A stretch of DNA of 64,000 nt, taken from positions 52,501 through 116,500 of the forward strand of contig JALSIB010000060.1 of assembly GCA_026981855.1 (NCBI GenBank), read 5' to 3'. How positions within the stretch are numbered: the stretch's first letter is position 1; the number at the start of each line of letters is the position of its first letter. This DNA is from Methylothermaceae bacterium (GTDB lineage: Bacteria > Pseudomonadota > Gammaproteobacteria > Methylococcales > Methylothermaceae). Both the position numbers and the translations under genes were made by a program. The notes beneath the pieces were generated by a model. That model had not been told where the DNA came from and did not search any database. It saw nothing but the letters and a program-made list of their open reading frames with translations. Shown one piece after another: positions 16 through 55,171 of the stretch.

Positions 16-540
16 TCACAGACATAAAGACATCTCTGGCAATTGATCCCCGTTTTCCCGCTCGCAGATGAGTACTTTCGTTCCCGCCTGGATCAGGTCG
101 AACAACTCGATTATCTCCGCATTGCGCATCCGGATGCAGCCGCAGGAAGCCGGGGTGCCGTCGATCAAATGATCCGGACTGCCGTGGATATAGATGTATC
201 TGCGGAAAGTGTCCACTTTTCCCAAGCGGTTGAAACCCATTTCCAGGCCGCACAGCCAAAGAATCCGGCTCAGGATCCAGTCCCGTTCGGGGTATTCCAG
301 CGCCAGCCGGGCGCTGTAAATCTCCCCCGTGGGACGGCGGCCGACGAGCACTGACCCGGGGGGCAGTCCCGATCCTATTTTGGCACGGACATAGTGCCAG
401 CCACGAGGTGTGCAACCACTGTTCTCTTTCTCTCCCGGCCCGTTTCGTGCGGTCGAAATGGAATAGGATTTCAGTATTATACCGTTATCTATTAAATTTA
501 ATCGTTGATCCGGGATATGAATGTGCAGGACAGGTTTCAT
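16..540 (-). CDS. L,D-transpeptidase (YkuD family), no signal peptide
   Basis: Predicted 174-aa YkuD-fold L,D-transpeptidase, a family that makes 3-3 peptidoglycan crosslinks or anchors proteins to the wall. The catalytic block is visible: IHGSPDHLIDGTP (His near residue 119) followed by SCGCIRMRN, with the nucleophile being the second Cys near residue 136. The usual motif is S-H-G-C, and here the His is Cys. I chose the ATG at 540 because it starts at the domain (MKPVLHIHI) and overlaps the rlmD stop by 4 bases (ATGA), which implies translational coupling. No export signal is visible, which is odd for a wall enzyme. The codons for DNGII near residue 18 are a Ter-like site (477-490). The family call is firm; activity is less certain because of the altered motif. 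Confidence 0.8.
   Translation of the reverse strand: MKPVLHIHIPDQRLNLIDNGIILKSYSISTARNGPGEKENSGCTPRGWHYVRAKIGSGLPPGSVLVGRRPTGEIYSARLALEYPERDWILSRILWLCGLEMGFNRLGKVDTFRRYIYIHGSPDHLIDGTPASCGCIRMRNAEIIELFDLIQAGTKVLICERENGDQLPEMSLCL
477..490 (-). other. Ter-like site L3 (exact copy), inside the L,D-transpeptidase gene
   Basis: The minus strand reads AGATAACGGTATAA. It shares a 20-base identity (475-494) with site L2 at 3600-3619. It lies about 30 kb left of dif on the strand expected for a site arresting forks that have crossed dif leftward. In the gene it encodes DNGII, using two ATA codons. Confidence 0.7.
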
Positions 541-1859
541 CGTTCCAACAGTGCGATGGATTCCACGTGAGCGGTATGGGGGAACATATCCATGATACCT
601 GCCTTGATCAGCCGGTAGCCGTGTTCGTGAACCAATATCCCGAGATCCCGTGCCAGGGTGGCGGGGTTGCAGGAGACGTAGACCACCCGGCGGGGATTCC
701 AGCGGGGAATCCATTCCATGACCTCCTGCGCCCCTGGGCGGGCAGGATCGAGCAGTACCTTGTCATAAGGTTGCCGGGCCCAGGGGTGATCGTCCAGCTT
801 TCCGCTCAGATCGGCGCAATGAAATGAAACGTTATCCAGGGCATTGGCCCTGGCGTTGAGGATTCCACGTTCCACTGCCTGGGGATTGCCTTCGACACCC
901 GTGACCCTTCCCGTCCTCCTGGCCAGGGGCAGGGTGAAATTTCCCAGGCCACAGAACAAATCGAGGATGGATTCTTCCGCGCCAGGCTCCAGTGCCGTGA
1001 GGACCCGCTCGATCATTTTACGGTTGATGCCGGGATTGACCTGGGTGAAATCCAGAGGGGAAAACCACAGGGTCACGTTCTCCGGCAATTCATAGCACAG
1101 GAGGGAAGGCGCGTCGGGATGGATGCACTGCAGGCTGTCGGGGCCCTTGGGTTGGAGGTGGATATCGAAGCCGTGATTCCGCCCGAACGCGATCAGCGCA
1201 TCTTTATCGTCCTCGGTAGGGGGTGTCAGGGTTCTGAACACCAATGCGTGCCGGTTGTCCCCCAAGGCGATTTCGATCTGCGGAATCTGCTCGCGAATGC
1301 TCAGCCCGTCGATGAGTCCGGACAAGTCTTGAATCCTGTCTCCCACCGCTGGATGCAGGGTCAGGCAACGATCGATCTCCGCCACTTTGCCGCTGGCTCT
1401 TTCCCGGAACCCGACCAACACCCTTCCCTTGTTGCGGACGAACCGGACCCCCAGCCGGGCTTTGTGCCGATAGCCCCATTGAGGGCCGGTCAGGGGCGGC
1501 CAAAGTTCTAAATGCTCGATCTTTCCGATTCGGCGTAATTGCTCGAGCAAAAGGTCCTGTTTGATCCGTATCTGTGCCTCGGGGGCTACATGCTGGAAAC
1601 TGCAACCTCCGCATCTCCCGAAGGCGGTACATGGGGGGTCGACCCTGTCGGCAGCCGGCCGAATGACCTCCAGCGTTTTGCCACAGGCATAATCACGTCG
1701 CATCTGGGTGTAACGGAACAGAACGGTTTCACCCGGCAGTGCCCCTTCGACGAAAATCGCCTTGCCTTCCAGGTGGCCGATTCCCCGGCCATCATGGGTG
1801 AGTTTTTCGATGGTGATTTCCGCCGGCTGTTGGGGCAGGCGTTTTTTCCTTCTGCCCAT
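537..1859 (-). CDS. rlmD: 23S rRNA (uracil-1939-C5)-methyltransferase RlmD
   Basis: A 440-aa SAM-dependent rRNA methyltransferase of the TrmA/RlmD family, expected to make m5U1939 in 23S rRNA. An N-terminal TRAM domain (about residues 8-65) is followed by the iron-sulfur motif C-x5-CGGC. The Rossmann motif DLFCGLGNF, the catalytic SCNPATLARD and the terminal MFPHTAHVE are all present. The start at 1859 (MGRRKKR) was chosen because the upstream open frame is basic, low-complexity and antisense to the neighbour. It is fourth in a run cysM, ydbH-like, ydbL-like, rlmD, ldt, and its stop overlaps the ldt start. Confidence 0.93.
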   Translation of the reverse strand: MGRRKKRLPQQPAEITIEKLTHDGRGIGHLEGKAIFVEGALPGETVLFRYTQMRRDYACGKTLEVIRPAADRVDPPCTAFGRCGGCSFQHVAPEAQIRIKQDLLLEQLRRIGKIEHLELWPPLTGPQWGYRHKARLGVRFVRNKGRVLVGFRERASGKVAEIDRCLTLHPAVGDRIQDLSGLIDGLSIREQIPQIEIALGDNRHALVFRTLTPPTEDDKDALIAFGRNHGFDIHLQPKGPDSLQCIHPDAPSLLCYELPENVTLWFSPLDFTQVNPGINRKMIERVLTALEPGAEESILDLFCGLGNFTLPLARRTGRVTGVEGNPQAVERGILNARANALDNVSFHCADLSGKLDDHPWARQPYDKVLLDPARPGAQEVMEWIPRWNPRRVVYVSCNPATLARDLGILVHEHGYRLIKAGIMDMFPHTAHVESIALLER

Positions 1860-1863
1860 GAAA

Positions 1864-2439
1864 TTATTTTTGCCGCCAACGGCCATTCGTCTCCTGGATC
1901 CACCAGCCGGATTGGGCGTTGGCGATCCAGCGTTTGGCAAACGTTTCCCGGATGTCGTCTTCCCACTCCGGGTGGCCGTTGGCAAGGGCAATGGCTTTGT
2001 AGAGGGCTTTGCGGTCCCGGTTTTCCGCCGCCACCAGGCGTTCCACCGCGGCACGTTGTTTGAGGGGGATTTCATTCTTGTGGATGACCGCCACCAGGCC
2101 GTTGTTGGCGTATCCTACCCAGCCTTTGGCCAGATATTGCCGCAGTTTCGGGAAGCGTTTTTGCATCGAAGCCTTGAGGGTGCGAATTTCCGGACTGTCG
2201 ATATTGAGGTTGGCCGGGGCGGCGGCATGGGCACTGCTGATCCCGAGCAGATCGAGCAGGCTGATACGGATGCGTGCCGGTTCCGATCCAGTCTGGGGTT
2301 CTCCGCTTTTTTGAATGTCCTGGATGATTTTGTCAGCGGCCTTTTCCGCGGCCGCCGCGGGGAAATAGATGTTGATGGTGACGCACGAGGCGATCCCCAG
2401 GAGCATGAGAAAAGGAAAGGCGAAAAGTTTATTCTTCAT
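1864..2439 (-). CDS. YdbL-like DUF1318 lipoprotein/periplasmic protein
   Basis: A 191-aa exported protein with a lipoprotein signal (LLGIASC, Cys at residue 19), an Ala-rich stretch and a C-terminal DUF1318/YdbL domain (about residues 75-190, with the motif GWVGYANNGLVA). The segment after the Cys (VTINIYFP) resembles the small lipoprotein YnbE, so this may be a YnbE-YdbL fusion. In E. coli, YdbH-YnbE-YdbL form an envelope-spanning phospholipid route. Here the ydbH-like gene lies directly upstream with a 4-base overlap (2436-2439), which supports the same complex. The family call is good; the fusion reading is inference. Confidence 0.75.
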   Translation of the reverse strand: MKNKLFAFPFLMLLGIASCVTINIYFPAAAAEKAADKIIQDIQKSGEPQTGSEPARIRISLLDLLGISSAHAAAPANLNIDSPEIRTLKASMQKRFPKLRQYLAKGWVGYANNGLVAVIHKNEIPLKQRAAVERLVAAENRDRKALYKAIALANGHPEWEDDIRETFAKRWIANAQSGWWIQETNGRWRQK

Positions 2440-4553
2440 TGGACCACCGGTGTTTGAATTTGGGTAATGCGTTTCAGGCGCGCCAACAAGGTCGGCCAGT
2501 CGATGCGGCGATTATAGCCGATCACGTCGATGCGAGGCAGCCCGCCGCCCGTGACGATGTAGTAACCATGAGGGGCGGGGGCGACACCGCGTAACTGGCA
2601 GACTTGGTTGGAGAGCTTCAATCCCAGGCCAAGGCGGTCGTAACCGAAGTCCTCGAACACCTTCAGAAACGTTCTGGATATCAGTCCCGCGGCGCTTCCG
2701 CCTCCAAGGTCGGTCAGATTGTCGATGGCTTGCTGGCTGATACGGTGCCTGCCCGTATCGTCAGGCGGTGTTTCGATCCAGGCATCGAAGGCGACAGGTC
2801 GCCAATTCTCCAGGTACAGGGATTTGATGTGTCCTTCCACTTTCCCGGTGATCCTGCCAAAGGAAAAGTGGCGGGTGATCAGCTCCAGGTCCAGATTCTT
2901 GAAATGGATGTCCGCTCTGAGACGAGGAAGGGGACCGAACAGGTTGGTCACGACCAGATTTTCGACAGTGACCGTTCCATCGAACACTTCAATGGTTAGT
3001 TTACCCTCCAGTTCGAGGGTGTGGCTTTCATGATCGTATTTGACCCCCGGTACATTGCCCGACAAAGTGCCGGAAAGTGGCGGGATTCTCAGAACCCTGG
3101 TCAGAAGTTCCAGGGAAATCGTCTCGATATCTCCGGCAAAGCGTATTTGCGGCGTGGTGGTCAGGTTCAGGAAATCCAGGCGCTGAATACGCAATCTGCC
3201 ATCCAGCACAGGGAGGATGGCGGTGTGGATCAGGCGCAAGTCATCGTCGGTCAGGCGCAGGAAGACATTTGCTTCTCCAACAGGGATGGCGTAGAGGTGG
3301 GCGGCGTGCCAGCTGATCCAGGAAGTGGGGAAAAGTTTTCCATGATTGTGGAAGTTCTTCTGCCAGTACAAGCGGGCGTTCAGCCCGTTGACGCCGATCC
3401 GGTGTTCGGTATCGCTGAGGGTGACGTCATCGAGGACGATCCGGCCCTTTTCCGGCCTGCCTGAGACGATGAGGAATCTTCCATTGGCGCTTCCCTGGTT
3501 GATCTCGAGGGTTTGCCAGGTGCCTCCCTGCAGAAAAGGCATCACGTACAACCGGTAAAAGGAAGACAGGCGGGCTTGGAAACCTCCGGTCAACCCGGAT
3601 ATTATACCGTTATCTATTATTCCTGCGCCAACCACAGATCCCACACCCGTTTGCCGTACACTCAAATCCTGCAATTCAAGCCTTCGGGTGGATGGATTCC
3701 AGAGGAACGAAGATCGAAGTTTGATGGGATTGTCGGTCAACGGCAGGTAGATCGGGAGAAAGAGCGCTTCTCCCCGGTCAGCCCTGACATCCAGGTTTCC
3801 CGACCATGCTTGGCCGCCATGCGTGGCATCCAGCTTCAGCCCCAGCCTCAGCCTTTCCAGCACTTTGCTGTAGTTTTCATCATTCAGGGAAATCTTGTGG
3901 CCATCCACCCGCATATCGAAGTGGGTGGCGTGGGCCTTTCCTCTGGCGTGCAGCGTCAAGGCGAGCCATCCCGAGATTTGTTTTATCCAGTGCAGGGACC
4001 GGGGAAGGAGGGGCTTTATCCATCTTTTCGCCAGGGTTTGGCGCTGGCTTGTGAGATCGAAGCGCCATCTGTCGCCATGTTGGTTGTAGTGTATTTTCCA
4101 GCTTGAATCGCCAATCTCCAAGGGGGCGACCTCGACCGACTTTTTGTCGCCGCCGGCAAAGTCGAAACGGTATCGTCCCGCGAGGGGGAGGTGAAGGCGT
4201 GAAAGGTTTCCCGCCAATCGTCCCTGGCGGCAGCGTAAGGGGAGGAGGGTTTTATCCGTGTGCCCAAGGCAGGAAAGGGAGAGGGGTTCCACCTTCCAGG
4301 GGGGGAAAGGAAAAGTCAGCGAAGCGATGGTCAGTTTCCATTTTTCAGGGTCCACCCAACCCCTGAGTGCTTTGATGGAAATGGATTGATAATCGAGCCG
4401 GTCGAGCTGAATCCGAAAAGTTGCCGAAGATGCCGGGGCGGCGTGGAAAGCTAGGCAGATCCAAAGCACGAGGTGACGCTTGTGACTGGCCTGGCGGGGT
4501 TGGCCGTTACGCAGGAAAGACACCCGTGGAAAGATATCTGTCCCCACGGTCAC
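2436..4553 (-). CDS. ydbH: YdbH-like AsmA-superfamily envelope protein
   Basis: A 705-aa protein with an early hydrophobic segment (VLWICLAFHAAPASSA) and a long beta-rich body typical of the bridge-like TamB/AsmA/YdbH lipid-transport family. The C-terminal DUF748/YdbH-like part reads VPGVKYD, then GTVTVENLVVTNLFGPLPRL. Pairing with the ydbL-like gene downstream supports a role in moving phospholipid between inner and outer membranes. The start at 4553 overlaps the cysM stop by 47 bases; a GTG about 85 bases further in (before VLWICLAF) is an alternative. A Ter-like site (3602-3615) lies inside and encodes DNGII. Confidence 0.72.
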   Translation of the reverse strand: MTVGTDIFPRVSFLRNGQPRQASHKRHLVLWICLAFHAAPASSATFRIQLDRLDYQSISIKALRGWVDPEKWKLTIASLTFPFPPWKVEPLSLSCLGHTDKTLLPLRCRQGRLAGNLSRLHLPLAGRYRFDFAGGDKKSVEVAPLEIGDSSWKIHYNQHGDRWRFDLTSQRQTLAKRWIKPLLPRSLHWIKQISGWLALTLHARGKAHATHFDMRVDGHKISLNDENYSKVLERLRLGLKLDATHGGQAWSGNLDVRADRGEALFLPIYLPLTDNPIKLRSSFLWNPSTRRLELQDLSVRQTGVGSVVGAGIIDNGIISGLTGGFQARLSSFYRLYVMPFLQGGTWQTLEINQGSANGRFLIVSGRPEKGRIVLDDVTLSDTEHRIGVNGLNARLYWQKNFHNHGKLFPTSWISWHAAHLYAIPVGEANVFLRLTDDDLRLIHTAILPVLDGRLRIQRLDFLNLTTTPQIRFAGDIETISLELLTRVLRIPPLSGTLSGNVPGVKYDHESHTLELEGKLTIEVFDGTVTVENLVVTNLFGPLPRLRADIHFKNLDLELITRHFSFGRITGKVEGHIKSLYLENWRPVAFDAWIETPPDDTGRHRISQQAIDNLTDLGGGSAAGLISRTFLKVFEDFGYDRLGLGLKLSNQVCQLRGVAPAPHGYYIVTGGGLPRIDVIGYNRRIDWPTLLARLKRITQIQTPVVQ
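3602..3615 (-). other. Ter-like site L2 (exact copy), inside ydbH-like gene
   Basis: The minus strand reads AGATAACGGTATAA, 27.3 kb left of dif, in the same orientation as L1 and L3. It is locally AT-rich within a GC-rich gene and encodes DNGII with ATA codons. Confidence 0.7.
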
Positions 4554-5415: not shown

Positions 5416-5520
5416 GTTTTGCTTGGTGTTTCGGCTGGCGCCTTCTTGTTCGGGATTGTCTGCTGATCGCGGAAATTATACCATCACTCACCCTTCATAC
5501 TTCGACCGGTCGATCACACG

Positions 5521-17947: not shown

Positions 17948-18131
17948 CTATGCTCCCCTTGGAAGTTGAAACGATAAATAGTATCACCGCCCATGGCTTC
18001 CGAGGCAAAACCTCTTGTTCCATGCCGGGTGAGGTATTTTTTAACGACGTGGCCTTGCGTGCCTGGGGAAAGGTGCCTGCAGGGAAATTGTGGAAGCACC
18101 ATGCTTGCCATTCCTATCGTATTCATCAACA

Positions 18132-20570
18132 ATGATCAGCTTAATCCGTAACAGCAAAATGTCGACGCCGTTGTCACAAACCAAAAAAGCCATCTTCGAT
18201 GAGACCGTGGAGCGGGTGACGCACGGGCTGCGTGAAGTCTGGTTGTTTTGTTATTTCGCTTTCGCTTTGTATCTTCTGTTGTCGCTGGCGACCTTCGATC
18301 TGGAGGATCCGGGCTGGAGGCATAGCGGAAGTGGCCGCCCCCTGAGCAATTCCGGTGGCATGTTCGGGGCCTGGATCGCCGATCTTTTTCTTTCCTTCGT
18401 GGGACTCATGGCCTATTTGTTCCCGGTCATGATCGCCTGGCACGGCTGGCTGGTCTATCGGCAGCGGGTCAATACCCAGTGGGACTGGGGGATTCTCGCG
18501 CTCCGCTGGCTGGGTTTCGTGTTGACCGTGCTGGCCGGCGCCAGCCTCGCTTATATCCATTTCGGCCAGGCGGCATGGGATCTCCCTGAAACCACCGGGG
18601 GAATCCTGGGGGAGGAGATGGCGGAATGGCTGCTGGGGCGGTTCGGCGTTCTGGGTGCCTCGTTGTCGTTGCTGGTGGTTTTTCTGGCCGGCGTCACCCT
18701 CTTTACCGGGCTTTCCTGGCTCGATCTGATGGAAACGATCGGAAAATACGTGTTGATGGGCTGGGGTTTCGCTGCCGAGGCCATCGCCGGTCTACGGGAG
18801 CGGAGAAGCGCTCACGGCGCCGTCACTGGAAGTGGGGTGGCGGGAAAGCCCGAAGCGCCGGCCAGGCGCGAACCCAAGGTGGCATTCTCTCCCGGGGAGG
18901 ACGGCGATGAGAAGCGCTGTTCCAGCCAGGCTGAGGTTCGGAAGGGATCCGAGGTGGCCGCCGGCGGCAAAGGGGAGCGATCGGGCAGGGAGCCTTCCGG
19001 CCGCAAGCGGCGGCAGTCCGAGTCTCCCATCATACGCAAGAAGGCGGAGCCCCGGACGGTGAAGATGGATTCGTCCCTGGCGCCTGCATTGCCTTCGCTG
19101 GATTTTCTCGAAGAACCGGTCCTGGCCTCCCAAGGGTATTCCAAGGACGACCTCGAAGCCATGTCGGCCCAGCTGGAAGCGGTTCTTGCCGATTTCGGCG
19201 TCAAGGCCAAGGTCAGGGAGGTTCACCCAGGTCCCGTGATCACCCGCTTCGAGATCCAGCCCGGCCCCGGCATCAAAGGCAGCCGGATCTCGAACCTGGC
19301 GACCGATCTGGCCCGTTCTCTTTCGGTGCCCAGCGTGCGGGTGGTCGAGGTGATCCCCGGTAAATCCTACGTGGGCCTGGAAATTCCAAACCGGGAGCGG
19401 GAAACCGTCTATCTGCGCGAGATCTTCACCAGCAGGGAATACCGACAGGCCAAGTCGCCGGTGACCCTGGTTCTGGGCAAGGACATATCCGGGCGTCCGG
19501 TGGTGGCGGATTTGGCCAAAATGCCGCACCTGCTGGTGGCGGGGACGACCGGTTCCGGCAAGTCGGTGGCGATCAACGCCATGATATTGAGCCTCCTCTA
19601 CAAGGCCACGCCGCAGGAAGTGCGGTTGATCATGATCGACCCCAAGATGTTGGAACTTTCGGTTTACGAGGGCATTCCCCATCTTTTGAGCCCCGTGGTC
19701 ACCGACATGAAAGAGGCGGCTTCGGCCCTCCGATGGTGCGTGGCGGAGATGGACCGGCGTTATCGACTGATGTCCGCCTTGAAGGTGCGTAATCTGGCCG
19801 GATACAACCGCAAGGTCCAGGAAGCCATCGACCGGGGGGAGCCGATCAAGGATCCCTTTTTCCGCAGCGCCGACATGGAAGAGGGGGGGAGCTGGCCCGT
19901 TCTCGAACCCCTGCCGGTGATCGTGGTGGTGATCGACGAACTCGCCGACATGATGATGCTGGTGGGCAAGAAGGTGGAGGAGCTGATCGCCCGCCTGGCG
20001 CAAAAGGCGCGGGCGGCGGGGCTGCATTTGATCCTGGCGACCCAGCGGCCTTCCGTCGACGTGTTGACGGGGCTGATCAAGGCCAACGTTCCGACCCGGA
20101 TTGCTTTTCAGGTGTCCTCCAAGGTGGATTCACGAACCATCCTGGATCAGAGCGGGGCCGAAACCCTGTTGGGGAGCGGGGACATGTTGTTCCTTCCTCC
20201 AGGGACAGGGTTTCCCCTGCGTGCCCACGGCGCCTTCGTGGACGATCACGAAGTGCTGAGGGTGGTGGAATTCCTCAAACAGACCGGTCGGCCCCGCTAT
20301 GTCGAGGAGATCACCCGTTTTCACGACGATAGCGAGAATCAGACAGGGGAAGGGGAACCGGAGAGCGAGGCGGATGCCTTATATGACGAGGCGGTACGCT
20401 TCGTGACCGAAACCCGCCGGGTTTCCATTTCCAGCGTACAGCGCAAATTCAAGATCGGATACAACCGGGCGGCCAGAATCGTCGAGGAAATGGAACGGGC
20501 CGGGGTGGTCAGCCCCGCCGAAGGCAATGGCTCGCGGACCGTCCTGGCGCCACCGCCGGTGGAAGATTGA
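18132..20570 (+). CDS. ftsK: DNA translocase FtsK
   Basis: About 812 aa. It moves chromosomal DNA at the septum and activates XerCD recombination at dif. The N-terminal membrane region has four hydrophobic helices (within residues 35-190), then a low-complexity linker, then the RecA-like motor with Walker [16 protein letters not shown] and Walker [15 protein letters not shown]. The C-terminal gamma winged helix ([20 protein letters not shown]) reads KOPS and touches XerD. Starts at 18132 and 18159 are both possible. The order trxB/ftsK-lolA-rarA is a conserved gammaproteobacterial arrangement. Here the gene is only about 10 kb from dif. Confidence 0.93.
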
Positions 20571-20578: not shown

Positions 20579-21196
20579 ATGATCAGAATGATTCCTGCCT
20601 TGATGATGGTTCTGTGGATGGGGGTCGTGGTCGCGGCATCCAGTCCCGGCGAAGTGCTGGAAGCCTTTCTCGCCTCGGCCAGAACCCTGTCGGCGGATTT
20701 CGTCCAGCAGTCCATCGACGAAACGGGTCATGTCAGCCAGCAAAGCCGGGGCAGGTTCTATCTCAAGCGGCCGGGAAAATTCCGCTGGACTTATCAATCC
20801 CCCTACCGTCAGGAAATCGTGGCTGACGGGGACAAGGTCTGGTTTTACGATCCCGACCTGGAACAAGTCACCGTCAAGACGGTAGACAGCGCGTTGGGAT
20901 CGGCCCCCGCCCTCCTGCTCAGCGGGCAGTTGAAACTCTCGCAACGCTTCGAGATTGAAGATCAGGGAAGGGAGGGGAAGCGGCTGTGGTTGAAGTTGAA
21001 ACCCAAGGACGAAGAAGATGTTTTCCGTTACCTTCGGGTGGAGATGGAAGGGGGGAGGCTGGTTTCGATGGAGCTGGCCGATCATTTCGGGCAACTGACC
21101 CGGATCCGTTTTTCCGCCATGGAAATCAACCTTCCACTGGATGACGATCTCTTTACATTCACACCTCCGCCGGGGGTGGATGTCTTTGAAGGCTGA
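20579..21196 (+). CDS. lolA: outer-membrane lipoprotein carrier protein LolA
   Basis: A 205-aa periplasmic chaperone moving lipoproteins from LolCDE to LolB. The signal peptide [20 protein letters not shown] is followed by [39 protein letters not shown] and [15 protein letters not shown], which are family blocks. ATG 20579 is preferred over TTG 20567 because gagga lies 5 bases before it. It follows ftsK by 8 bases and its stop overlaps the rarA start. Confidence 0.93.
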
Positions 21197-22512
21197 TGGG
21201 CGGATCTGAAAATCAGCGGTTCCGCCCCCTCGCCGATCGCCTTCGCCCCCGGACACTGACCGATTTCATCGGTCAGCGGCACTTGCTTGCGCCGGGCAAG
21301 CCCTTGCACGATGCCATTTCGGGGGGGCATCTGCATTCGATGATTCTTTGGGGTCCGCCGGGGACGGGGAAGACCACTTTGGCGCGCATGATCGCCAAGT
21401 CCGTGAACGCGCAATTTATACCGTTATCTGCTGTATTATCCAACATCAAAGAAATCCGGGAAAAAATCGGGCAGGCCCGCATCAATCACGAGAGAGGGGA
21501 AGCGACCATCCTGTTTGTGGACGAAGTGCATCGTTTCAACAAAGCGCAGCAGGATGCCTTCCTGCCGCATATCGAGAACGGTATCATCCATTTCGTCGGC
21601 GCCACGACTGAAAATCCTTCCTTTGCCCTCAACAATGCCTTGCTGTCCCGGGCCAGGGTGTATGTTCTCAAATCCCTGAATCAGGAGGATTTGCGGCAAG
21701 TCATCGAGCGGGCGCTCGAGCACCCCGAGGGCTTTGCCGGTATCGACGTGGAGATTGGCGATCCGGTCCGTCACTGGCTGGTCGAGGCGGCCGACGGGGA
21801 CGCCCGCAGGCTTTTGAACCTGTTAGAGGTCATGGTCGATCTGGCACTGGATGATACGGGGAAAAAGGCCAGAATCGAAGAAGGGCTGGCACGCGATGTC
21901 CTCTCTGGTGGCAGTGTGCGCCGTTTCGATCGTCAGGGAGACGACTTCTATGACCAGATTTCCGCGCTCCACAAGACCATCCGCGGAAGCGATCCCGACG
22001 CGGCCTTGTATTGGTTGTGCCGAATGTTGGATGGCGGATGCGATCCTTTCTGTATCGCCCGTCGTTTGGTGAGGATCGCATCGGAGGATATCGGAAACGC
22101 CGATCCCAGAGCCCTGCAGTTGGCGTTGAATGCTTGGGAAGCTCAGGAACGGCTGGGATCGCCCGAAGGAGAATTGTCTTTGGCCCAGGCGGCGGTGTAT
22201 CTGGCCTGTGCCCCCAAGAGCAACGCCGTTTACCGGGCCTTTCAGGCAGCGCAACGGGACGCCGCCGCCACAGGCAGTCTCGAGGTTCCGATACACCTTC
22301 GCAATGCACCCACCAGGTTGATGAAGGAGCTGGGATATGGCAAGCGTTATCGCTATGCCCACGATGAACCCGAAGCCTACGCCGCGGGGGAATGTTACTT
22401 CCCCGAAACCATGAAACCGGTCCGTTATTACTGTCCGGTCGACCGGGGGTTGGAAATCAAGATCGCCGCCAAGCTGGCGCATTTGCGGGCGCTGGATGAG
22501 CGCGGCAAATGA
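21196..22512 (+). CDS. rarA: replication-associated recombination ATPase RarA
   Basis: A 438-aa AAA+ ATPase (MgsA/RarA) that acts at stalled replication forks. Walker [15 protein letters not shown] (about residues 52-65), Walker [21 protein letters not shown], sensor 1 [20 protein letters not shown], and the tetramerisation tail ending near [14 protein letters not shown]. It starts at ATG 21196, overlapping the lolA stop. A Ter-like site (21416-21429) encodes FIPLS near residues 75-79, where relatives usually have a different sequence. Confidence 0.94.
21416..21429 (-). other. Ter-like site L1 (exact copy), inside rarA
   Basis: The minus strand reads AGATAACGGTATAA, 9.5 kb left of dif; it is the left-hand site nearest dif. 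Read with the gene it encodes FIPLS, using ATA and TTA codons. Confidence 0.72.
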
Positions 22513-30911: not shown

Positions 30912-30939
30912 ACTTCGCATAATGTATATTATGTTAAAT
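30912..30939 (+). other. dif: chromosome dimer resolution site dif
   Basis: Twenty-eight bases: ACTT, then CGCATAATGTATATTATG, then TTAAAT. From position 5 to 28 it is identical to E. coli dif as I recall it; only the first four bases (ACTT against GGTG) in the XerC outer arm differ. The XerC arm, 6-bp centre and XerD arm are intact with the inverted CATAAT/ATTATG core. It lies in a short AT-rich intergenic gap between thiO and tus, as expected for a terminus site. Confidence 0.95.
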
Positions 30940-30962: not shown

Positions 30963-31793
30963 TCAGTTGCAATAACGATGTCCCCTGATCGACGGCAGAA
31001 AAGCTTCCCGCTCGATTTTGACATCCGCCCTGGGCTTCCTGGGTTTGCGTTCGTCCGGGAACGCGGCCGAAACTTCCGGCAAGGCCTCTCCAGGATCGAG
31101 CGGTATCAATATAGCCAGGGCGGCACTGATCATTTTCCGGCTCACCTTCTTTTCCTTTCCTTCTCGCTCTATCCAACAAACGTTGGCTTTGATATGAGGC
31201 TTTAGATCCTGCACGATGGCGATGGGCTCGTCTCTTGGATGCCGCTGCAGAAGCTCCAGTTGCTTCTGGTAGCCGATCGAGGGCTCTTCTCCGGCAAGCC
31301 TGAGCAATCTTTGCAAGGCTTCCTGGCGGGATATTTTCTTGATCGACCGTGTCGCTCCCCAGGTGAAACGAACCGAGTCCGGCTTTTTCAGCAGAATGGG
31401 AAGATGCCGGTACGACTGCTTGAAATGCAGCCTGGGATAACCGAGCTCCGCCATGAGGTTTCTTGCCCTCTGGGGATCTTTGCGGTTGACCTGCAATACC
31501 GCCTGCTTGAATTCGTCACGGTAAAGATTGGTCGCCGCAGCCAGTTTGATCAGCCTCCCCGAGGCACCGACGATACCTGGGCAGATATCGGTTTCCCTGC
31601 CGTCCCGCTCGTCCTGGAACTGGAGTCGTTCCAGCACTTCGACCAGTTTTCTCCGGGCCGCTTCATCGTGGTAGGTTTTTTTTCCCAGATCGAATACCCA
31701 GGCAGATCGTCTCTCCTGCAAGATCTGGATTGTCAACTGGTCCAGTGAGGATCTCAGTTTTTTGAACGAGATGGTAAGTTTTTGGGTATTCAT
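30963..31793 (-). CDS. tus: Tus-like DNA replication terminus site-binding protein
   Basis: A 276-aa protein, against about 309 aa for E. coli Tus. Residues 138-163 (PDSVRFTWGATRSIKK, then ISRQEALQRL) match the E. coli PATLRFGWANKHIIKN, then LHRDEVLAQL block at about 10 of 26 positions, from memory. YRHLPILL (128-135) matches YRTLTVLH. The C-terminal part (VCWIEREGKEKKVSRKM then AALAILI) matches the Tus VWYKG-QKQV and LIALI strands. It is strongly basic. I chose ATG 31793 because the frame above it is antisense to the fnr gene. It sits 23 bases from dif, with a Ter-like site 16 bases upstream of its start, the same arrangement as E. coli tus/TerB. No good Shine-Dalgarno site is seen, so expression may be low. 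Confidence 0.87.
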   Translation of the reverse strand: MNTQKLTISFKKLRSSLDQLTIQILQERRSAWVFDLGKKTYHDEAARRKLVEVLERLQFQDERDGRETDICPGIVGASGRLIKLAAATNLYRDEFKQAVLQVNRKDPQRARNLMAELGYPRLHFKQSYRHLPILLKKPDSVRFTWGATRSIKKISRQEALQRLLRLAGEEPSIGYQKQLELLQRHPRDEPIAIVQDLKPHIKANVCWIEREGKEKKVSRKMISAALAILIPLDPGEALPEVSAAFPDERKPRKPRADVKIEREAFLPSIRGHRYCN

Positions 31794-31795
31794 TT

Positions 31796-31824
31796 TTGAA
31801 AAAGTGAAAAATAACGGTATAAAT
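31796..31824 (+). promoter_or_regulatory. possible rightward promoter toward fnr-type gene, overlapping Ter site
   Basis: TTGAAA (31796-31801), a 16-base gap and TATAAAT (31818-31824). The -10 lies inside the Ter-like site, so bound Tus would cover it. The Ter motif itself contains TATAA, so part of the match is built in. Confidence 0.45.
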
Positions 31825-31910: not shown

Positions 31911-32633
31911 ATGACTCCCATGCAACCCGAATTGCAGGTCACTTGCCACAACTGTGGTTTCAACAGCGTATGCTTTCCCCGTGGCCTGTCCAAGGATGAA
32001 ATCAATCAGCTTGAAGACGTGGTGCAGCGCCGCAAAGTGTTGCACAAAGGAGAGTTTCTTTTCCGCAACGGGGATGCCTTCCAGGGCTTGATTGCCATCA
32101 AGTCGGGGATGGCCAAGTTGGTCTTTCACAACGAACAGGGCGAAGAGCACATCGTTCAGATCCTGCTGCCCGGGGAGATTCTGGGGTTTGGAGCGATCGC
32201 CGAACAACGTCATCACTGTTCCGCCATCGCCCTCGATACCCTGAGTTACTGCGAACTGCCGGCGGATCAGCTGCATCGGATCTGCTTCCGCATCCCTACC
32301 CTGCTGGACGAAATCCTGCGTCATGCCAGCGACGCCATTGGTAACCAGAGAACCCAGACCCTCTATATCAAAAAGCCCGCGGAGCAGCGCCTGGCCGCTT
32401 TCCTGCTGGATCTTTCCCAGCGATACGCCTATCGGGGGTTTTCCAGCGACCACTTTTCCATCGGTTTCACCAGGCAGGAACTGGGGAATTACCTCGACCT
32501 GGCCCTGGCCACCGTCAGCCGGACCCTCAAGCAATTCGAAAAGAACGGGTGGCTGGAAGTCCGCGGAAAGTGGATCCGGATACGGGACCGGCAACCTCTG
32601 GAAACGCTCGTTTCCGGCAATCAGTCACAATAG
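31911..32633 (+). CDS. fnr: FNR/Anr-type oxygen-responsive transcription regulator
   Basis: A 240-aa Crp/Fnr-family activator. The N-terminal cysteines C-x2-C-x5-C (CHNCGFNSVC) and a fourth Cys in RHHCSAIALD match the [4Fe-4S] ligands of FNR. A cyclic-nucleotide-binding-like beta barrel is followed by the helix-turn-helix FTRQELGNYLDLALATVSRT, with recognition residues E--S-R typical of TTGAT boxes. Start ATG 31911 has acagga 6 bases before it. It is divergent from tus and shares a 117-base control region that includes Ter site R1. Confidence 0.92.
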   Translation: MTPMQPELQVTCHNCGFNSVCFPRGLSKDEINQLEDVVQRRKVLHKGEFLFRNGDAFQGLIAIKSGMAKLVFHNEQGEEHIVQILLPGEILGFGAIAEQRHHCSAIALDTLSYCELPADQLHRICFRIPTLLDEILRHASDAIGNQRTQTLYIKKPAEQRLAAFLLDLSQRYAYRGFSSDHFSIGFTRQELGNYLDLALATVSRTLKQFEKNGWLEVRGKWIRIRDRQPLETLVSGNQSQ

Positions 32634-49479: not shown

Positions 49480-50378
49480 GCATATTCGTCAACCGGCAAT
49501 CGAAAGTCATCTTCCAGGGTTTCACCGGTCAACACGCCACTTTTCACGCCGAGGAAGCCATCAAGACCGGCACCCAGGTGGTGGGTGGCGTCACACCGGG
49601 AAAAGGCGGCACGACCCATCTGGGGCTGCCGGTATTCGACACCGTCGCCGAGGCGGTTCGCGAAACCGGCGCCGATGTCTCGGCCATTTTCGTTCCTCCG
49701 GCTTTTGCCGCCGACGCCATCATGGAGGCGATCGACGCCGGCATCAAGGTCGCGGTCAGCATCGCCGACGGCATTCCGGTTCAGGATATGATCCGCGTCC
49801 AGCGTTACCGCCAGGTTCGCTGGGAGACCGAGGGTGACACTTGCCTGGTGATCGGTCCCAACACCCCGGGCATCATCACCCCCAGGCAATGCAAGGTGGG
49901 CATCATGCCGGCGCATATTTACCAGCCGGGCCGCATTGGTGTCGTTTCGCGTTCGGGAACCCTCAATTACGAGGCTGTGGAGCAAATGACCGCCCTGGGT
50001 CTGGGGCAGTCCACTTCCGTGGGCATCGGCGGCGACCCGGTCAACGGGACGGATTTCGTCACCGTCCTCAAGGCCTTCGAAAAGGATCCGGACACCGATG
50101 CCGTGGTCATGATCGGCGAGATCGGCGGTCCTCAGGAAGTCACCGCCGCACGTTGGGCCCGGGACAACATGAAAAAGCCCGTCATCGGTTTCGTCGCCGG
50201 CCTTTCCGCTCCCCCTGGACGGCGGATGGGGCATGCGGGCGCCATCATCGCCGGCGAAGACGATACCGCCAAGGCGAAAATGGATGTCATGGAGGAACTT
50301 GGCCTCTACGTCGCCCGCAACCCGGCCCAGATCGGGGAAACCGTCATGAGGGCGCTGCGGGAGAACGGCATTTCCTGA
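49476..50378 (+). CDS. mtkB: malate--CoA ligase alpha subunit (malate thiokinase)
   Basis: A 300-aa CoA-binding subunit: [40 protein letters not shown] and the phosphohistidine loop [13 protein letters not shown] (His near residue 250). The start at 49476 is fixed by the mtkA overlap and by the family N terminus; the longer open frame is a shadow inside mtkA. It completes the serine-cycle trio. Confidence 0.93.
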
Positions 50379-50408
50379 CAGCGTGTTGCAGGCGCTTTTC
50401 GCCCCCCG

Positions 50409-51011
50409 TCAGGTTTCCTGGCAGGGGGTGATTTCCCGAGCGACGAGATGCATCTGTTCTTGCAACACGCCAAACTGGCTGCAATGGTAACAGCGGAAGC
50501 GGATGCCTTCGGGCAGCCAGGCCGGGAATTCAGGATCGACGATACCCGCCCTTCGCAACCCGCCAGGATCTTGACAGGGCGGCTCAACCGATTTCACCAG
50601 ACTTAATGCCCTGGCGCCCAGCTTTCCTGCCAGCCAGGCCGAAAGGCTGTCCGAAGTCACCTTCCAGCTGGCCGGTACGCCGTCTCGATCCAGTTCCTCA
50701 GGGTCCGGCAGCCATACGGGCGTGATGCCTTGCCCTACGAGTTCCAGGACGTCCGCCACGCTTGGTGCAGGTTTCAATCCCGGCTCGAGGGCCGAATACA
50801 TCCTTCCCATTTGCTGCATGGCAAGCAGTGCCATGTGGTGAGCTGTCCGGTCACCGAAGCGCCACTGCTTTTGAGCCTGCCTCACCTGATCGGCGAACCG
50901 CCCTCCTCCTGGCACCACGACGGCTTTTTCGGGCGTCTGACTCAGCACCTTCAACCAGCGAAGCAGAACCGCCTCACCGGAGAAGCTGCCTCCGAGTTTA
51001 ACCACCCACAC
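50409..51011 (-). CDS. MfnE-like small-molecule kinase (amino-acid kinase fold)
   Basis: A 200-aa amino-acid-kinase-fold protein: VVKLGGSFSGEAVLLRWL, VVPGGGRFADQVRQ and WKVTSDSLSAWLAGKLGA. This small form resembles archaeal MfnE, which phosphorylates aminomethylfuran phosphate in methanofuran synthesis, and its homologues in H4MPT-using methylotrophs. A Cys-x2-Cys-like end (YHCSQFG) is present. It overlaps pabB by 14 bases. The assignment to methylofuran is inference from fold and neighbours. Confidence 0.7.
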   Translation of the reverse strand: MWVVKLGGSFSGEAVLLRWLKVLSQTPEKAVVVPGGGRFADQVRQAQKQWRFGDRTAHHMALLAMQQMGRMYSALEPGLKPAPSVADVLELVGQGITPVWLPDPEELDRDGVPASWKVTSDSLSAWLAGKLGARALSLVKSVEPPCQDPGGLRRAGIVDPEFPAWLPEGIRFRCYHCSQFGVLQEQMHLVAREITPCQET

Positions 51012-52377
51012 GATCTGAAGCCAATTGGAATTTGGAGAGCACCTGGATCAAGGCCGCCGCCTTGTCGAAACTTTCCTGATATTCACGGCGGGCGTCCGAA
51101 TCGGCGACGATGCCGCCACCGGCCCAGAAATGGATCGAGTTGTTGGCATGAACCAGGGTACGAATGGCAATGTTGGTATCCATCCCGCCATCGAAACCGA
51201 CATAGCCGATCGAACCACAATAGACGCCACGGCGGGAATTTTCCAATTCTTCGATAATCTCCATGGCCCGGATTTTGGGCGCGCCGGTAATCGATCCACC
51301 TGGAAAGCATCCCCTGAGAAGATCGAGCGCATGACGACCGGGTTCCAGTTCGCCCACCACGGTACTGACCAGATGATGGACGGTGGCGAAAGTTTCCACT
51401 TCGAACAGTTTCGGGACTTTCACGGAACCCAAATGGCAATTTTTACTGAGATCGTTACGCAACAGATCCACGATCATCAGATTCTCCGCCCGGTCCTTGA
51501 TGCTTTCGGAAAGCGCCTCGATCAAGTAAAAATCTTCTTCAGGCGTCATGCCCCGGGGTCGGGTTCCCTTGATGGGCTTGGTTTCCACCTTGCCCTCCCG
51601 GACCTTGAGAAAGCGTTCCGGTGAAGAACTGAGAATCGTCAGCTGAGGGAGGCGAAGAAAGGCGCCAAACGGGGCGGGATTGGTTTGCCTTAAATCCAGG
51701 TAGGCTCGCCAGGGATCGCCGGACGCCAGCGCGGCGAAACGTTGGGCAAAGTTGACCTGGTAACAATCCCCTTCGTGAATGTAATGCTGGATACGCTCGA
51801 AGGCATGGCGATAGTCGGGCCAGGACATGTCGGAGCGAATGGCGCTGTGGAGCCGGAACCCTCCCGCAGGCCGGGGGCGGGGCTGTCGCAAAACGGTCAT
51901 GATTTCACGCCACGCCGCCCGGGTGGCGGTATTGTCGCGGCCGGCCAGAAAGCTCTTTTTTGAGCGGTGGTCCGTGACGATGGCCCAATCATAGATCCCG
52001 ACCGCCATCTCCGGAATGGATTCGGTTTCCCGCGCAATGCTCGGCAACCTTTCCAGCCTCCTCGCAAGATCATAGGAGAAAAAACCGATCGCCCCACCGG
52101 AAAAAGGCAGCGATTCGACAGCGTGTGTTTCCCCCAAGGCCTGTTTGACCAGGCAGAAGGGATCCTCGGGAGAAAGCCGGATGCCCTCCCCGTCTCTGAC
52201 CTCGGTCAAATGTCCTCGCGTGACCAAGGTGGTGCGGGGACGGACCGCGATAATATCGTAACGTCCCTGGGGGGTATGGGAATGATTGCTGTCCAGAAAC
52301 ACCGCCCAGGGCTCCCGGGACCAATGGGAAAAGAGACCGGCGCTATCTTCCCGATATGGCAGTTCGGCAATGAACAT
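50998..52377 (-). CDS. pabB: aminodeoxychorismate synthase component I
   Basis: A 459-aa chorismate-utilising enzyme. TKPIKGTRPRGMTPEED, SSSPERFLKVREGKVETKPI and the C-terminal FPGGSITGAPKIRAMEIIEE carry the PIKGT and GAPK motifs that favour PabB over TrpE. ATG 52377 is chosen since the frame above is a shadow. It makes p-aminobenzoate precursor, needed for folate and also for H4MPT through beta-RFAP synthase, encoded 8 kb away in the same C1 block. Confidence 0.9.
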   Translation of the reverse strand: MFIAELPYREDSAGLFSHWSREPWAVFLDSNHSHTPQGRYDIIAVRPRTTLVTRGHLTEVRDGEGIRLSPEDPFCLVKQALGETHAVESLPFSGGAIGFFSYDLARRLERLPSIARETESIPEMAVGIYDWAIVTDHRSKKSFLAGRDNTATRAAWREIMTVLRQPRPRPAGGFRLHSAIRSDMSWPDYRHAFERIQHYIHEGDCYQVNFAQRFAALASGDPWRAYLDLRQTNPAPFGAFLRLPQLTILSSSPERFLKVREGKVETKPIKGTRPRGMTPEEDFYLIEALSESIKDRAENLMIVDLLRNDLSKNCHLGSVKVPKLFEVETFATVHHLVSTVVGELEPGRHALDLLRGCFPGGSITGAPKIRAMEIIEELENSRRGVYCGSIGYVGFDGGMDTNIAIRTLVHANNSIHFWAGGGIVADSDARREYQESFDKAAALIQVLSKFQLASDRVGG

Positions 52378-52447
52378 GAGTCTCTGCTGTTGGAATCGGA
52401 CTTTCCGGCATCTTAGCAAGTGTGATCGGAGTATGAAAGGAAAACCA

Positions 52448-53482
52448 TTATTCCCGAAGGCGTAATTCCAGCAACAAAGCCAAGGCCACGGCCGGGGCGC
52501 AGTCGGCCGGGGAAAAAGAACTGTTTTCCCCGGAACAGGGAATGAACTCCGAGAAATCACGATAAGGCACAGCGAGGCGGCGTGCGATTTCAGGCAATAG
52601 AAACCGCCCTACTCCGGCGCCCACCAGCTCAATCGGCTCTTCGGGAATCGTTGACAGTTGCCGCATGATGGCCAGCATCAACCGCTGGATCTGTAATTCC
52701 ATGAAGTATTCGGCCAACCTGCTCCAGGCCGATTCCGCCGCGTCGTTCTTGTCACACCCTATCATCCGCGCCAGCCGCCTCATGCTGGCAGGGACGGTTT
52801 TTGGGCCGCCATCGGCGGTTTCCGCCTGATCGGTATGGGGAGGCAACAACGCCAATATCCGGTAGATATCGGCGCTTGTGGCAAAATGTTCGGCCATCAA
52901 GGGATGCCATTTGCCGCCGAAAGGCACCTGTTCGGCCAAGGCCATCAAGGGGGTACGGATCACCCCCATATACAACAATTCTTCCGATTCAAGACGCTCG
53001 CGATCGTTGAGCCCTTTGCTGACAACGTGTTTCTGCTGAAGGGGGACGATATCGGTAGTGGTACTGCCGATATCGATGAAAATGCCGGTCTGGCATGAGT
53101 GGGCAATCCACAGAGCAGGTAATATCCAGTTTTGTGAAGCTATTTTTTTGATTTGGGGATTGCCAAAAGATAACGGTATAAATTCTGGGTTTTCAAATAT
53201 CCGAAGGTCCGCCTCAGGAAGCAATTTAACCATCCTCTCAAGAATCGCCCGCCCCCCCTGCTGGCGATCGGGAAAAGCATCCACCATTTCTCCCGTCATG
53301 GTCACACCATGAACGCAACTGGATGGAATTTGGCGAGCAATTACGGAAACCGCCTCCCCAAGCCTTTCGATTCCCCGCCACAAGGGACAAGGCACCTGCC
53401 ATACCGCCTCGACGTTGCCCTCATGCACCCATGCTGCCTTGACATGGGCCCCACCCAAGTCCCAACCGATCACATCCTTCAT
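52448..53482 (-). CDS. MfnF-like hydantoinase/oxoprolinase-fold protein (H4MPT-linked C1 pathway)
   Basis: A 344-aa ASKHA/hydantoinase-like protein: VIGWDLGGAHVKAAWV at the N terminus and GIFIDIGSTTTDIVPL near residue 125, both phosphate-binding loops. The family is known as H4MPT-linked C1 transfer pathway protein; the archaeal member MfnF condenses the furan and tyramine parts of methanofuran. The start at 53482 overlaps the upstream ATP-grasp stop by 4 bases. Ter site R2 lies inside and encodes FIPLS. Confidence 0.75.
   Translation of the reverse strand: MKDVIGWDLGGAHVKAAWVHEGNVEAVWQVPCPLWRGIERLGEAVSVIARQIPSSCVHGVTMTGEMVDAFPDRQQGGRAILERMVKLLPEADLRIFENPEFIPLSFGNPQIKKIASQNWILPALWIAHSCQTGIFIDIGSTTTDIVPLQQKHVVSKGLNDRERLESEELLYMGVIRTPLMALAEQVPFGGKWHPLMAEHFATSADIYRILALLPPHTDQAETADGGPKTVPASMRRLARMIGCDKNDAAESAWSRLAEYFMELQIQRLMLAIMRQLSTIPEEPIELVGAGVGRFLLPEIARRLAVPYRDFSEFIPCSGENSSFSPADCAPAVALALLLELRLRE
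53168..53181 (+). other. Ter-like site R2 (exact copy), inside MfnF-like gene
   Basis: Plus strand AGATAACGGTATAA, 22.2 kb right of dif, opposite in orientation to the left-hand sites. Read with the gene it encodes FIPLS with ATA and TTA codons. Confidence 0.7.
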
Positions 53483-54465
53483 TTCGCACTCACCCACACT
53501 CGCCGCCCCTTCCACCCTTCCCGCCAGGCGGCAATCCGTTCCAACTCAGTGTCACCCGCCGCCATCGCCACCACCATTTCCGCTACCGAACGTCCCAGCG
53601 CCCGGCTCAGCCCGGCATAGGAGAGCGTCAAACGCGGATTGATTTCCAGCACCCACAGACGGCCATCCTCACTTCGTATCAGGTCCACACCGGCATATCC
53701 CCAAAGGCCGGGAATGGCCGCGGCGATCCGCCGACACAGGTTCTGAAGCGATCCATCGTCGTCAGACAGGGCATTGACTTCGCACCCTGAAAGAACAAGG
53801 CGATTTTCCAATACTTCGACGCGCTGGCGGTTGACACTCAACAATACGGTTTTTCCACAATCGAAAAGGGCGCTCAGACTCAGGGACTCGCCATCGATGA
53901 ATGGCTGGACGAGCAGCTTGTCATGCCTGTCAGGCTGGCGGCATGTCCTGAAGGTTCCCTCACATCCCACACCGTCCACGGGTTTGACGATCCAGGGTGG
54001 GGGAAACTGAAAGTCGAACTCCAGGCCGTGGCAGCACGGAACCGTATCGATACCCGCCCTCCGGAGATGCTCGAGGGTGCGGTATTTGTCCGCCGTCAAG
54101 GCCACCGCATCCACATCGGATCCCAGCAATTTCTTTCCGCTTAAAACCACCTGTCTGCTCAGGCTTGCCAGGATGCCACCGGTCTCCGGGGCAATGGGCC
54201 AGACCGCATCAGCCCATGCCAGGGCATGACAGAATGAGGTCTCCAGCGGGTTCGAACGATCCACGGTAAAAACCCTCACCTTGGCAGCGGAAAGGAACGC
54301 CTCCGCCAGCGGCAACCTGTAATCGACCAGAACGCCCAAAGATACGCCCGGCAGATCCCGCAAGAGCGCATCCAGCATGGCCCTTCCTTCTCCAGCCAGA
54401 TGCATCGGCAGATCTTCCTCGAGCAGCCCGCCACCAGTAATATATTCAAAAAGGAGGACATTCAT
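53479..54465 (-). CDS. ATP-grasp ligase, MfnD-like
   Basis: About 328 aa. An ATP-grasp fold with WIVKPVDGVGCEGTF as the ATP loop and WVLEINPRLTLSYAGLSRAL as the metal-binding C-terminal block. It begins MNVLLFEYITGGG, a start typical of this family, which includes archaeal tyramine-glutamate ligase MfnD. Overlap with the MfnF-like gene supports methylofuran synthesis. The start codon (54465) overlaps the start codon of the divergent HisA-like gene; a start at 54483 would lengthen the overlap. Confidence 0.75.
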   Translation of the reverse strand: MNVLLFEYITGGGLLEEDLPMHLAGEGRAMLDALLRDLPGVSLGVLVDYRLPLAEAFLSAAKVRVFTVDRSNPLETSFCHALAWADAVWPIAPETGGILASLSRQVVLSGKKLLGSDVDAVALTADKYRTLEHLRRAGIDTVPCCHGLEFDFQFPPPWIVKPVDGVGCEGTFRTCRQPDRHDKLLVQPFIDGESLSLSALFDCGKTVLLSVNRQRVEVLENRLVLSGCEVNALSDDDGSLQNLCRRIAAAIPGLWGYAGVDLIRSEDGRLWVLEINPRLTLSYAGLSRALGRSVAEMVVAMAAGDTELERIAAWREGWKGRRVWVSAK

Positions 54466-55171
54466 GGAGCTGATTCCGGTCATCGATCTATTGCACGGGC
54501 AAGCCGTTCTGGCCTGTCAGGGGCGGCGCGACCAGTATCGTCCACTGACCACTTCCCTGTGTCCCAGCAGCGATCCGCTGGAGGTCATCGCCGCTTATCT
54601 CACCCTGGCCCCTTTCCGCAAATTTTATATCGCTGATGTTGATGCGATAGAAAAAATGGGAGATAACGGTATAATAATCGATTCTGTACGTCGAGCCTTC
54701 CCCGCGCTCACCTTTTGGATAGATCGTGGTTGGCCTCCCGTTTGCCGGCAGGCGAATCAAATCCCCGTCATCGGCAGCGAATCGCTGGAAAACGATTGGC
54801 GTGAGAACCTGAGCGCCATGAACGAGCCGTGGATTTTATCTCTCGATTTCGATGCCGACAAATTGCGGGGACCATCGGAAATCCTTGAGGAAGCCAGTCT
54901 GTGGCCAAGAACGGTCGTCTTGATGTCCCTGTCCCGAGTGGGCGGTGAATGCGGCCCCGACTGGCACCGCCTGAGCCATTTCATCAACCTTCATCCCAAC
55001 CGCCACTGGATCGCTTCCGGCGGCATCCGCCAACAACAGGACTTATCCAGGCTGGAGCGAATGGGCATCCGTCAGGCCCTGGTCGCCAGCGCCCTTCACC
55101 GCGGCACCCTCATCCCCGGCGAAACCAAAGAAAAAAGCCGCCACCCAAGCGGCAGCGGCTTATTTCGATAA
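54464..55171 (+). CDS. HisA/HisF-like TIM-barrel protein of the C1 cluster
   Basis: A 235-aa protein. MELIPVIDLLHGQAVLACQG resembles the HisA first strand, FYIADVDAIEKMG matches the second and HWIASGGIRQQQDLSRLERM the phosphate site. It is not ordinary HisA, since the middle is divergent and no his genes are near. HisA-like proteins recur in H4MPT gene clusters of methylotrophs with unproven roles. A strong Shine-Dalgarno AAGGAGG (54451-54457) lies within the divergent gene. Ter site R3 encodes DNGII. Confidence 0.72.
   Translation: MELIPVIDLLHGQAVLACQGRRDQYRPLTTSLCPSSDPLEVIAAYLTLAPFRKFYIADVDAIEKMGDNGIIIDSVRRAFPALTFWIDRGWPPVCRQANQIPVIGSESLENDWRENLSAMNEPWILSLDFDADKLRGPSEILEEASLWPRTVVLMSLSRVGGECGPDWHRLSHFINLHPNRHWIASGGIRQQQDLSRLERMGIRQALVASALHRGTLIPGETKEKSRHPSGSGLFR
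54661..54674 (+). other. Ter-like site R3 (exact copy), inside HisA-like gene
   Basis: Plus strand AGATAACGGTATAA followed by TAAT, 23.7 kb right of dif and 1.5 kb beyond R2. It encodes DNGII with ATA codons, as at L2 and L3. Confidence 0.7.
55131..55161 (-). terminator. intrinsic terminator of fae
   Basis: On the minus strand AAGCCGC pairs with GCGGCTT across a 13-base loop and is followed by six T. It lies inside the 3' end of the convergent HisA-like gene. Confidence 0.78.

Follow-up and report, generated by a model that had tools for sequence, protein, structure and literature searches.

We analysed a stretch of 64,000 nucleotides from a Methylothermaceae bacterium, likely a methanotroph (contig JALSIB010000060.1, positions 52,501 to 116,500; hereafter the window) that carries six copies of a 14-base word on both sides of dif, the XerCD dimer-resolution site, together with a gene for a Tus-like protein. 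These six words are very probably Ter sites for the encoded Tus-like protein, at which replication forks leaving dif would be arrested. A previous inspection of the letters (the original prediction) had proposed them as candidate Ter sites whose strand switches at dif.

The coordinates and strands of the six copies and the position of dif all proved to be as first described: along the window the order is three minus copies, dif, and three plus copies (Table 1). The 12-base core, ATAACGGTATAA, is expected only 0.0006 times on both strands of the window under a second-order Markov model, which upholds the earlier claim that it is rare. When up to three mismatches are allowed, the window contains eight matches, a number equalled in none of 100 shuffles. 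The two additional matches (21573, plus; 48973, minus) have three mismatches each and are without the core, and we treated them as chance. We also scanned the window for words with at least five copies, at least two of them on each side of dif, that switch strand perfectly at dif. At 11 bases and above, all perfectly flipping words belong to the Ter-like motif (perfect flips are seen for 4 of the 6 qualifying words at k = 11, for 3 of 4 at k = 12, for 2 of 2 at k = 13 and for the single word at k = 14). At 8-10 bases other words flip perfectly at dif as well, with 119 of 3357 words doing so at k = 8.

The window spans the replication terminus, since the cumulative GC skew climbs to about 30-36 kb of the window and falls thereafter, and since it holds a dif site, which we assigned by comparison with E. 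coli dif. The protein encoded by the tus-like gene, P0001, matches PF05472 at 32.8 bits against a cut-off of 22, and this is the single match in the whole genome. The structure predicted for P0001 resembles that of E. coli Tus and has the full Tus fold.

Table 1. Positions of the Ter-like sites and associated features; coordinates are those of the window, except in the last row.
Feature	Position	Strand	Description
Ter-like site, left arm	477-490	minus	exact AGATAACGGTATAA; inside L,D-transpeptidase (YkuD) open reading frame (ORF) 16-714
Ter-like site, left arm	3602-3615	minus	exact AGATAACGGTATAA; inside 705-aa ORF 2436-4553
Ter-like site, innermost left	21416-21429	minus	exact AGATAACGGTATAA; inside rarA 21196-22512 (MgsA/RarA match), spells FIPLS
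dif, XerCD dimer-resolution site	30912-30939	plus	matches E. coli dif at 25 of 28 bases; no second match in the window
tus-like gene, 276 aa (P0001)	30963-31793	minus	transcription runs towards dif; the stop lies 23 bp short of it
tus-vicinal Ter-like site, innermost right	31809-31822	plus	AAATAACGGTATAA, one change; 15 bp upstream of tus start
fnr-like regulator gene	31911-32633	plus	divergent from tus; NF008365 210 bits, under its cut-off of 228
Ter-like site, right arm	53168-53181	plus	exact AGATAACGGTATAA; inside tetrahydromethanopterin (H4MPT)-linked one-carbon (C1) pathway gene 52448-53515 (TIGR03123 above cut-off)
Ter-like site, right arm	54661-54674	plus	exact AGATAACGGTATAA; inside HisA/HisF-family ORF 54377-55171 (TIGR00734 match below its cut-off)
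ftsK-like gene, DNA translocase	18090-20570	plus	NF007615 FtsK 826 bits, under the curated cut-off of 1566
Loci of group f38	G424:C1:269732-380919 (L227-L246); G280 C4; G530 C32		tus homologue and TTATGGGATAA

In the source genome (2.75 Mb in 60 contigs, with the window on contig C60), TAACGGTATAA has eight exact copies, of which six are in the window and two on contig C46; a reversed control word occurs once. Both C46 copies are on the plus strand. Since the GC skew of C46 is negative, as in the right replichore, and the DNA around its sites aligns to DNA right of dif in the relative G005, these two copies are trap-oriented as well. With one mismatch in the 12-base core, five more copies appear on five other contigs, no more than for the control (seven in all); the orientation relative to dif is given for the copies other than these five.

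The same elements recur within the family. The tus-like gene, the Ter-like word and one dif (with up to three mismatches) are each present in all ten Methylothermaceae genomes searched, and the Tus-like proteins of these genomes are 59-73% identical to P0001. The exact word occurs 3-9 times per genome and 71 times altogether, counts that are not independent between genomes, as some sites are orthologous. All 45 copies on dif-bearing contigs are minus to the left and plus to the right of dif; 26 are on contigs without dif, where an orientation was assigned only to the two on C46. For instance, G018 has four minus copies, dif and four plus copies within 205 kb, G005 has six minus and three plus copies around dif within 167 kb, and G022 has four and three copies within 217 kb, while G012 has three and four copies around dif plus one copy on another contig. 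In three family genomes no copy lies outside the terminus, and the copies span 7-8% of the main contig. In eight of the ten genomes the reversed control word has 0 or 1 copies. An exact 11-base core is located upstream of tus in each of the nine genomes with that DNA (the tenth contig stops at the gene), and this tus-vicinal site is the innermost of its arm in the window and in G005, G012, G018, G022 and G038. Outside the family, 16 genomes of the order, six of which have a tus homologue, contain the word 0-4 times each, scattered and at about the level of the reversed control. Altogether, the word is rare genome-wide, confined to the terminus, oriented by replichore, and present in all ten family genomes, which keep the tus-like gene, and this supports the original proposal of candidate Ter sites.

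In the mechanism that we propose, the Tus-like protein would bind the words, halt forks running away from dif and pass forks running towards it. A fork from the left would first encounter the TATAA end of the left sites, which is predicted to be permissive, pass dif, and then be held at 31809, 53168 or 54661, where the AGATA end faces the fork. Forks from the right would, in mirror image, be held at 21416, 3602 or 477. Through the copy 15 bp upstream of its gene, Tus would also be able to act as its own repressor; across this site we recognised no sigma-70 promoter. In the source genome the GC skew is +0.08 to +0.11 to the left of the site at 477, +0.03 to +0.06 from the left sites to 31809, -0.012 from there to 53168, and -0.10 to -0.17 further to the right. 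Skew alone cannot show arrest, and this profile fits forks that often pass the changed vicinal site and are held at 53168. In G018, the skew within the trap is at least as strong as that far outside it.

We infer from viability that the AGATA end is the blocking end, because in the other orientation forks from the origin could not get as far as dif. The original prediction had instead read the blocking end from a letter alignment to E. coli Ter, AGNATGTTGTAACTAA, in which AG at positions 1-2 and GTA at positions 9-11 agree. This alignment did not withstand comparison: against TerB it does about as well as column-shuffled motifs (p 0.35 dif-facing, 0.54 reversed), and AG is missing in five of nine tus-vicinal copies. 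Because the alignment is no better than shuffled columns, we abandoned it as evidence of polarity and rely on the geometry.

Five of the six window copies lie within ORFs, where the DNA word can be compared with the protein it encodes. We took flanks for 62 of the 71 family sites, leaving out eight of G030 and one of G042. The rarA site is at an identical position in six of the ten family genomes (the six in which the position was examined), and the 53168-type and 54661-type sites each keep their gene position in eight of ten. In rarA, all four site codons are identical across six species, as against 4 of 74 other codons with an invariant amino acid; in the 54661-type gene the corresponding counts are four of four and 4 of 28. 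The 53168-type gene has three of four site codons identical, with just two invariant residues outside the site for comparison, and its peptide FIPLS (7 of 8; IIPLS in 1 of 8) stands within a poorly conserved stretch. This codon identity suggests selection on the DNA. Because the genomes had been picked for having the exact word, we rejected the codon test as independent proof and count it only as support. Two unrelated proteins, RarA and the product of the C1-pathway gene, share the peptide FIPLS because both genes use one and the same reading frame across the Ter-like word, and the Ter-like DNA site seems to dictate the protein sequence at this peptide.

The cytosine pocket of E. coli Tus consists of I79, F140, H144 and G149. 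We compared these positions in an alignment of 43 Tus sequences, with 42 non-E. coli rows and eight rows of Methylothermaceae. The position of G149 is arginine in 37 of the 42 non-E. coli rows and in all eight Methylothermaceae rows; that of F140 is arginine or asparagine in Methylothermaceae; H144 is kept in only 4 of 42 rows and is variable in Methylothermaceae (histidine in one of eight). The position of I79 is tyrosine or phenylalanine in 36 of 42 rows, and either of these in Methylothermaceae, and that of R198 is proline in eight of eight. Loss of the cytosine pocket is likely rather than shown, because the alignment around 140-149 is of moderate certainty. According to PMC8707476, it is by capture of C6 in a pocket that E. 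coli Tus arrests forks. Alignment A1 comprised 34 of 40 homologues, leaving out P0007, P0008, P0021, P0025, P0035 and P0037 (four of them short). A tree containing eight Methylothermaceae rows and 19 of 24 class hits (excluding the hit in the window and four genes that are broken or partial) gave a firm Methylothermaceae clade (100/100), and we rejected any clear place for it, as its neighbours were not resolved and E. coli Tus is on a very long branch.

Similar arrangements with other words appear in further families. The protein was matched in 22 of 251 genomes of the order sample, and Tus homologues were found in 24 of 369 genomes of the class sample, from 15 families (E at most 1e-5), with some of the genes broken or partial. 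In family f4 of the same order, TGATACTGTTATC is located upstream of tus and flips at dif (with up to two mismatches, 5 of 6 copies in G029 and 4 of 4 in G066), while G057 has an inverted pair only, on one side. The exact 12-base form of this word occurs three times in G029 and three times in G066, all near dif, and with one mismatch further copies elsewhere are at control level. In family f8, TGTCTATGATATAAW flips at dif in G185 (7 of 7) and G249 (5 of 5), and TCTATTATCA does so in G179 for 6 of 7 copies, where the odd one out is a member of an inverted pair located at the tus promoter. In G093, G099, G139 and G222 there are between one and three copies, which are too few or stand on one side only. 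A 16-base near-palindrome, TAGTATAAATATACTA, occurs twice upstream of the tus homologue of G190 (G190:C2:2865672 and 2866512), unlike the polar words of its relatives. In f38, a gammaproteobacterial group outside the order (1.4-1.6 Mb), two inverted copies of TTATGGGATAA lie next to tus, within about 200 bp, in three of three genomes. In G424 the GC skew changes sign at this pair, and four of the nine genome copies are in trap order around it, with five elsewhere; no good match to dif was found within 400 kb in G424. Two tus homologues appear to be broken by internal stops or a split into two frames (G520:C1:3012212-3013047 and G568:C1:2431484-2432336), which suggests loss in some lineages.

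When the dif-facing cores are placed with their 5' end towards dif (in f38, towards the skew switch) and in a register chosen by eye, ATGTTGTAA (E. coli TerB), ATGATATAA (f8), ATGGGATAA (f38), ACGGTATAA (Methylothermaceae), CTGTTATCA (f4) and CTATTATCA (f8) agree at letters seven and nine in all six cases, and the third letter is G in five. The Methylothermaceae site is itself nearly palindromic, so letter homology does not settle its sense. The f4 motif matches the Methylothermaceae motif better when reversed (8.81 vs 5.68), as does that of f8 genus g28 (4.26 vs 3.02, neither beating shuffles); the motif of f8 genus g37 matches better dif-facing (6.37 vs 3.29), and the f38 vicinal word, read by eye, has seven of nine core letters in common with the Methylothermaceae word in the dif-facing sense. 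Because the families give conflicting readings, we rejected simple homology through relatives as a guide to the sense.

Several observations weigh against interpreting the six words as Ter sites for the Tus-like protein. The copies in G012 extend across 410 kb, and the reversed control word occurs five times in G012 and three times in G030, compared with eight real copies in each. The letters differ from E. coli Ter, as the TerB comparison above attests, and F140, H144, G149 and R198 of E. coli Tus are not conserved in the alignment. In Methylothermaceae, tus is transcribed in the direction of dif, and the vicinal site has the sense opposite to that of the gene. By contrast, tus is directed away from dif in E. 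coli, in all three f4 genomes and in six of eight placeable f8 genomes (the exceptions being G190 and G222), and the f4 and f8 sites read with the gene. Since tus direction and vicinal-site reading differ between families, the sense of the site is not transferable by simple homology; either it turned with an inversion of the gene, or the near-palindrome is read differently from one family to another. Beyond Methylothermaceae, the f8 words were sought in stretches near dif and tus and not genome-wide, one weak G029 copy is discordant, as is one inverted-pair copy at or around tus in each of G057, G179, G099 and G139, and G190 has only a palindrome.

Could the words serve another purpose? One alternative is that they serve the terminus as a different type of polar signal, comparable to MatP sites or the FtsK-orienting polar sequences (KOPS), with the Tus-like protein marking or anchoring the terminus in segregation and no fork arrest. 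The words are indeed directed towards dif and situated near it, and a KOPS-like octamer flips at dif too, but with 3-9 exact copies per genome they are far sparser than that octamer, which occurs 21 times in the window alone. The full Tus fold predicted for P0001 belongs to a family whose tested member arrests forks, and a site just upstream of tus is found in E. coli as well; we consider this alternative very improbable. We give slightly less credence still to the possibility that a transcription factor uses the words as its operators, be it the Fnr-like regulator or the Tus-like protein as a mere repressor, in which case the flip would follow gene orientation along the replichores. Replichore gene bias could indeed orient promoters, and one copy is in the tus/fnr intergenic region, yet the ORF-internal copies are not in promoters. 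Moreover, copies run against rarA and the gene at 52448-53515 and along the ORF at 54377-55171, yet each placed copy is trap-oriented, and the confinement of all copies to the terminus in three genomes also argues against operators.

Least probable in our view is a relic trap, whose sites and protein persist while arrest is absent or weak because the lock pocket is gone. The replaced pocket residues and R198 would be expected of such a relic, as would the changed base in the innermost right site and the start of strong negative skew only at 53168. On the other hand, the 11-base core is kept at the same rarA codons in six species (in genomes picked by the word), and tus is kept in ten of ten genomes at the identities given above.

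Among the neighbouring features, the ftsK-like product would work together with dif. The KOPS-like octamer GGGNAGGG also turns at dif, with eight plus and four minus copies to the left and one plus and eight minus copies to the right. The 705-aa ORF at 2436-4553 (minus strand), which carries one Ter-like site, has no Pfam or NCBIfam match.

As described in parts of PMC6549158, tus is resident in most Enterobacteriales, Pseudoalteromonas and Aeromonadales, the sole gammaproteobacterial clades that this survey allows for it, and three recent domestications from plasmids are proposed, a proposal repeated in parts of PMC10331603. We found distant Tus relatives on 18 of 72,556 plasmid records, including those of Halomonas and Methylophaga, at about 31% identity or less among the ten matches listed. 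We tentatively suggest a different history, while regarding it as rather doubtful: Tus-Ter might be old and widespread in Gammaproteobacteria rather than the product of three recent domestications, with each lineage having rewritten its Ter word together with Tus. Most Tus proteins would then be without the E. coli pocket, having a near-invariant arginine at the G149 position, so that arrest here would use a different lock, and the sense of the Methylothermaceae sites would have turned with the gene. In open-access PubMed Central we found no paper that joins Tus or a fork trap to Methylothermaceae, methanotrophs or Methylococc-, which does not prove that there is none.

The dif site lies at 0.80 (G005), 0.83 (G057) and 0.72 (G185) of the way round from dnaA, so the replichores of these genomes are very unequal, and all three genomes carry tus and Ter-like words. 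They supply chromosomes in which a trap should matter most, such as that of G005. More generally, the full anatomy of a probable trap is now described in a further order (likely Methylococcales), with Ter words that differ between families. Gene and word together would act as one-way barriers that keep forks within the finish zone of the chromosome, and the co-diverged protein-site pairs provide a natural series from which to learn which parts of the Tus-Ter lock one-way arrest needs.

The closest known system is E. coli Tus-Ter (TerA-J, PF05472), with which the Methylothermaceae system shares a Tus-family protein whose predicted fold is the same, the presence of a site shortly before tus, and several sites in each arm, those on one side of dif being oriented oppositely to those on the other. 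It differs in its core (ACGGTATAA rather than ATGTTGTAA), in the lack of conservation of F140/H144/G149 and R198, and in the location of tus 23 bp from dif and facing it, with the vicinal site reversed relative to the gene. Type I and type II fork traps are defined, in passages of PMC8707476, within Enterobacterales. As in the type I trap described there (Edwardsiella, Dickeya and other Enterobacterales; Toft et al.), the tus-vicinal site is the innermost of its arm and the trap is narrow, with the innermost window sites 10.4 kb apart. In contrast to that type, in which those passages report a vicinal Ter 74-83% identical to TerB, conserved C6-contacting residues in the orthologues checked, and often one or two sites per arm, the putative Methylothermaceae trap has no such vicinal identity or residues and has 3 to 6 sites per arm in genomes with long contigs. 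The plasmid Tus-Ter of R1 type, as presented in parts of PMC10331603, resembles the present one in that distant Tus relatives occur on plasmids, whereas the present system is chromosomal, near dif, and found in every family genome. The RTP-Ter system of Bacillus subtilis (RTP, replication terminator protein) likewise has polar terminus barriers and an autoregulated gene, as the Methylothermaceae sites and tus would, but RTP is unrelated to a protein of predicted Tus fold. Because its sites do not follow the letter consensus AGNATGTTGTAACTAA and, in the sequence alignment, its protein does not have the pocket residues, both of which mark the canonical enterobacterial C6-lock type, we assign the Methylothermaceae system not to that type but to the Tus-dependent fork traps in the broad sense.

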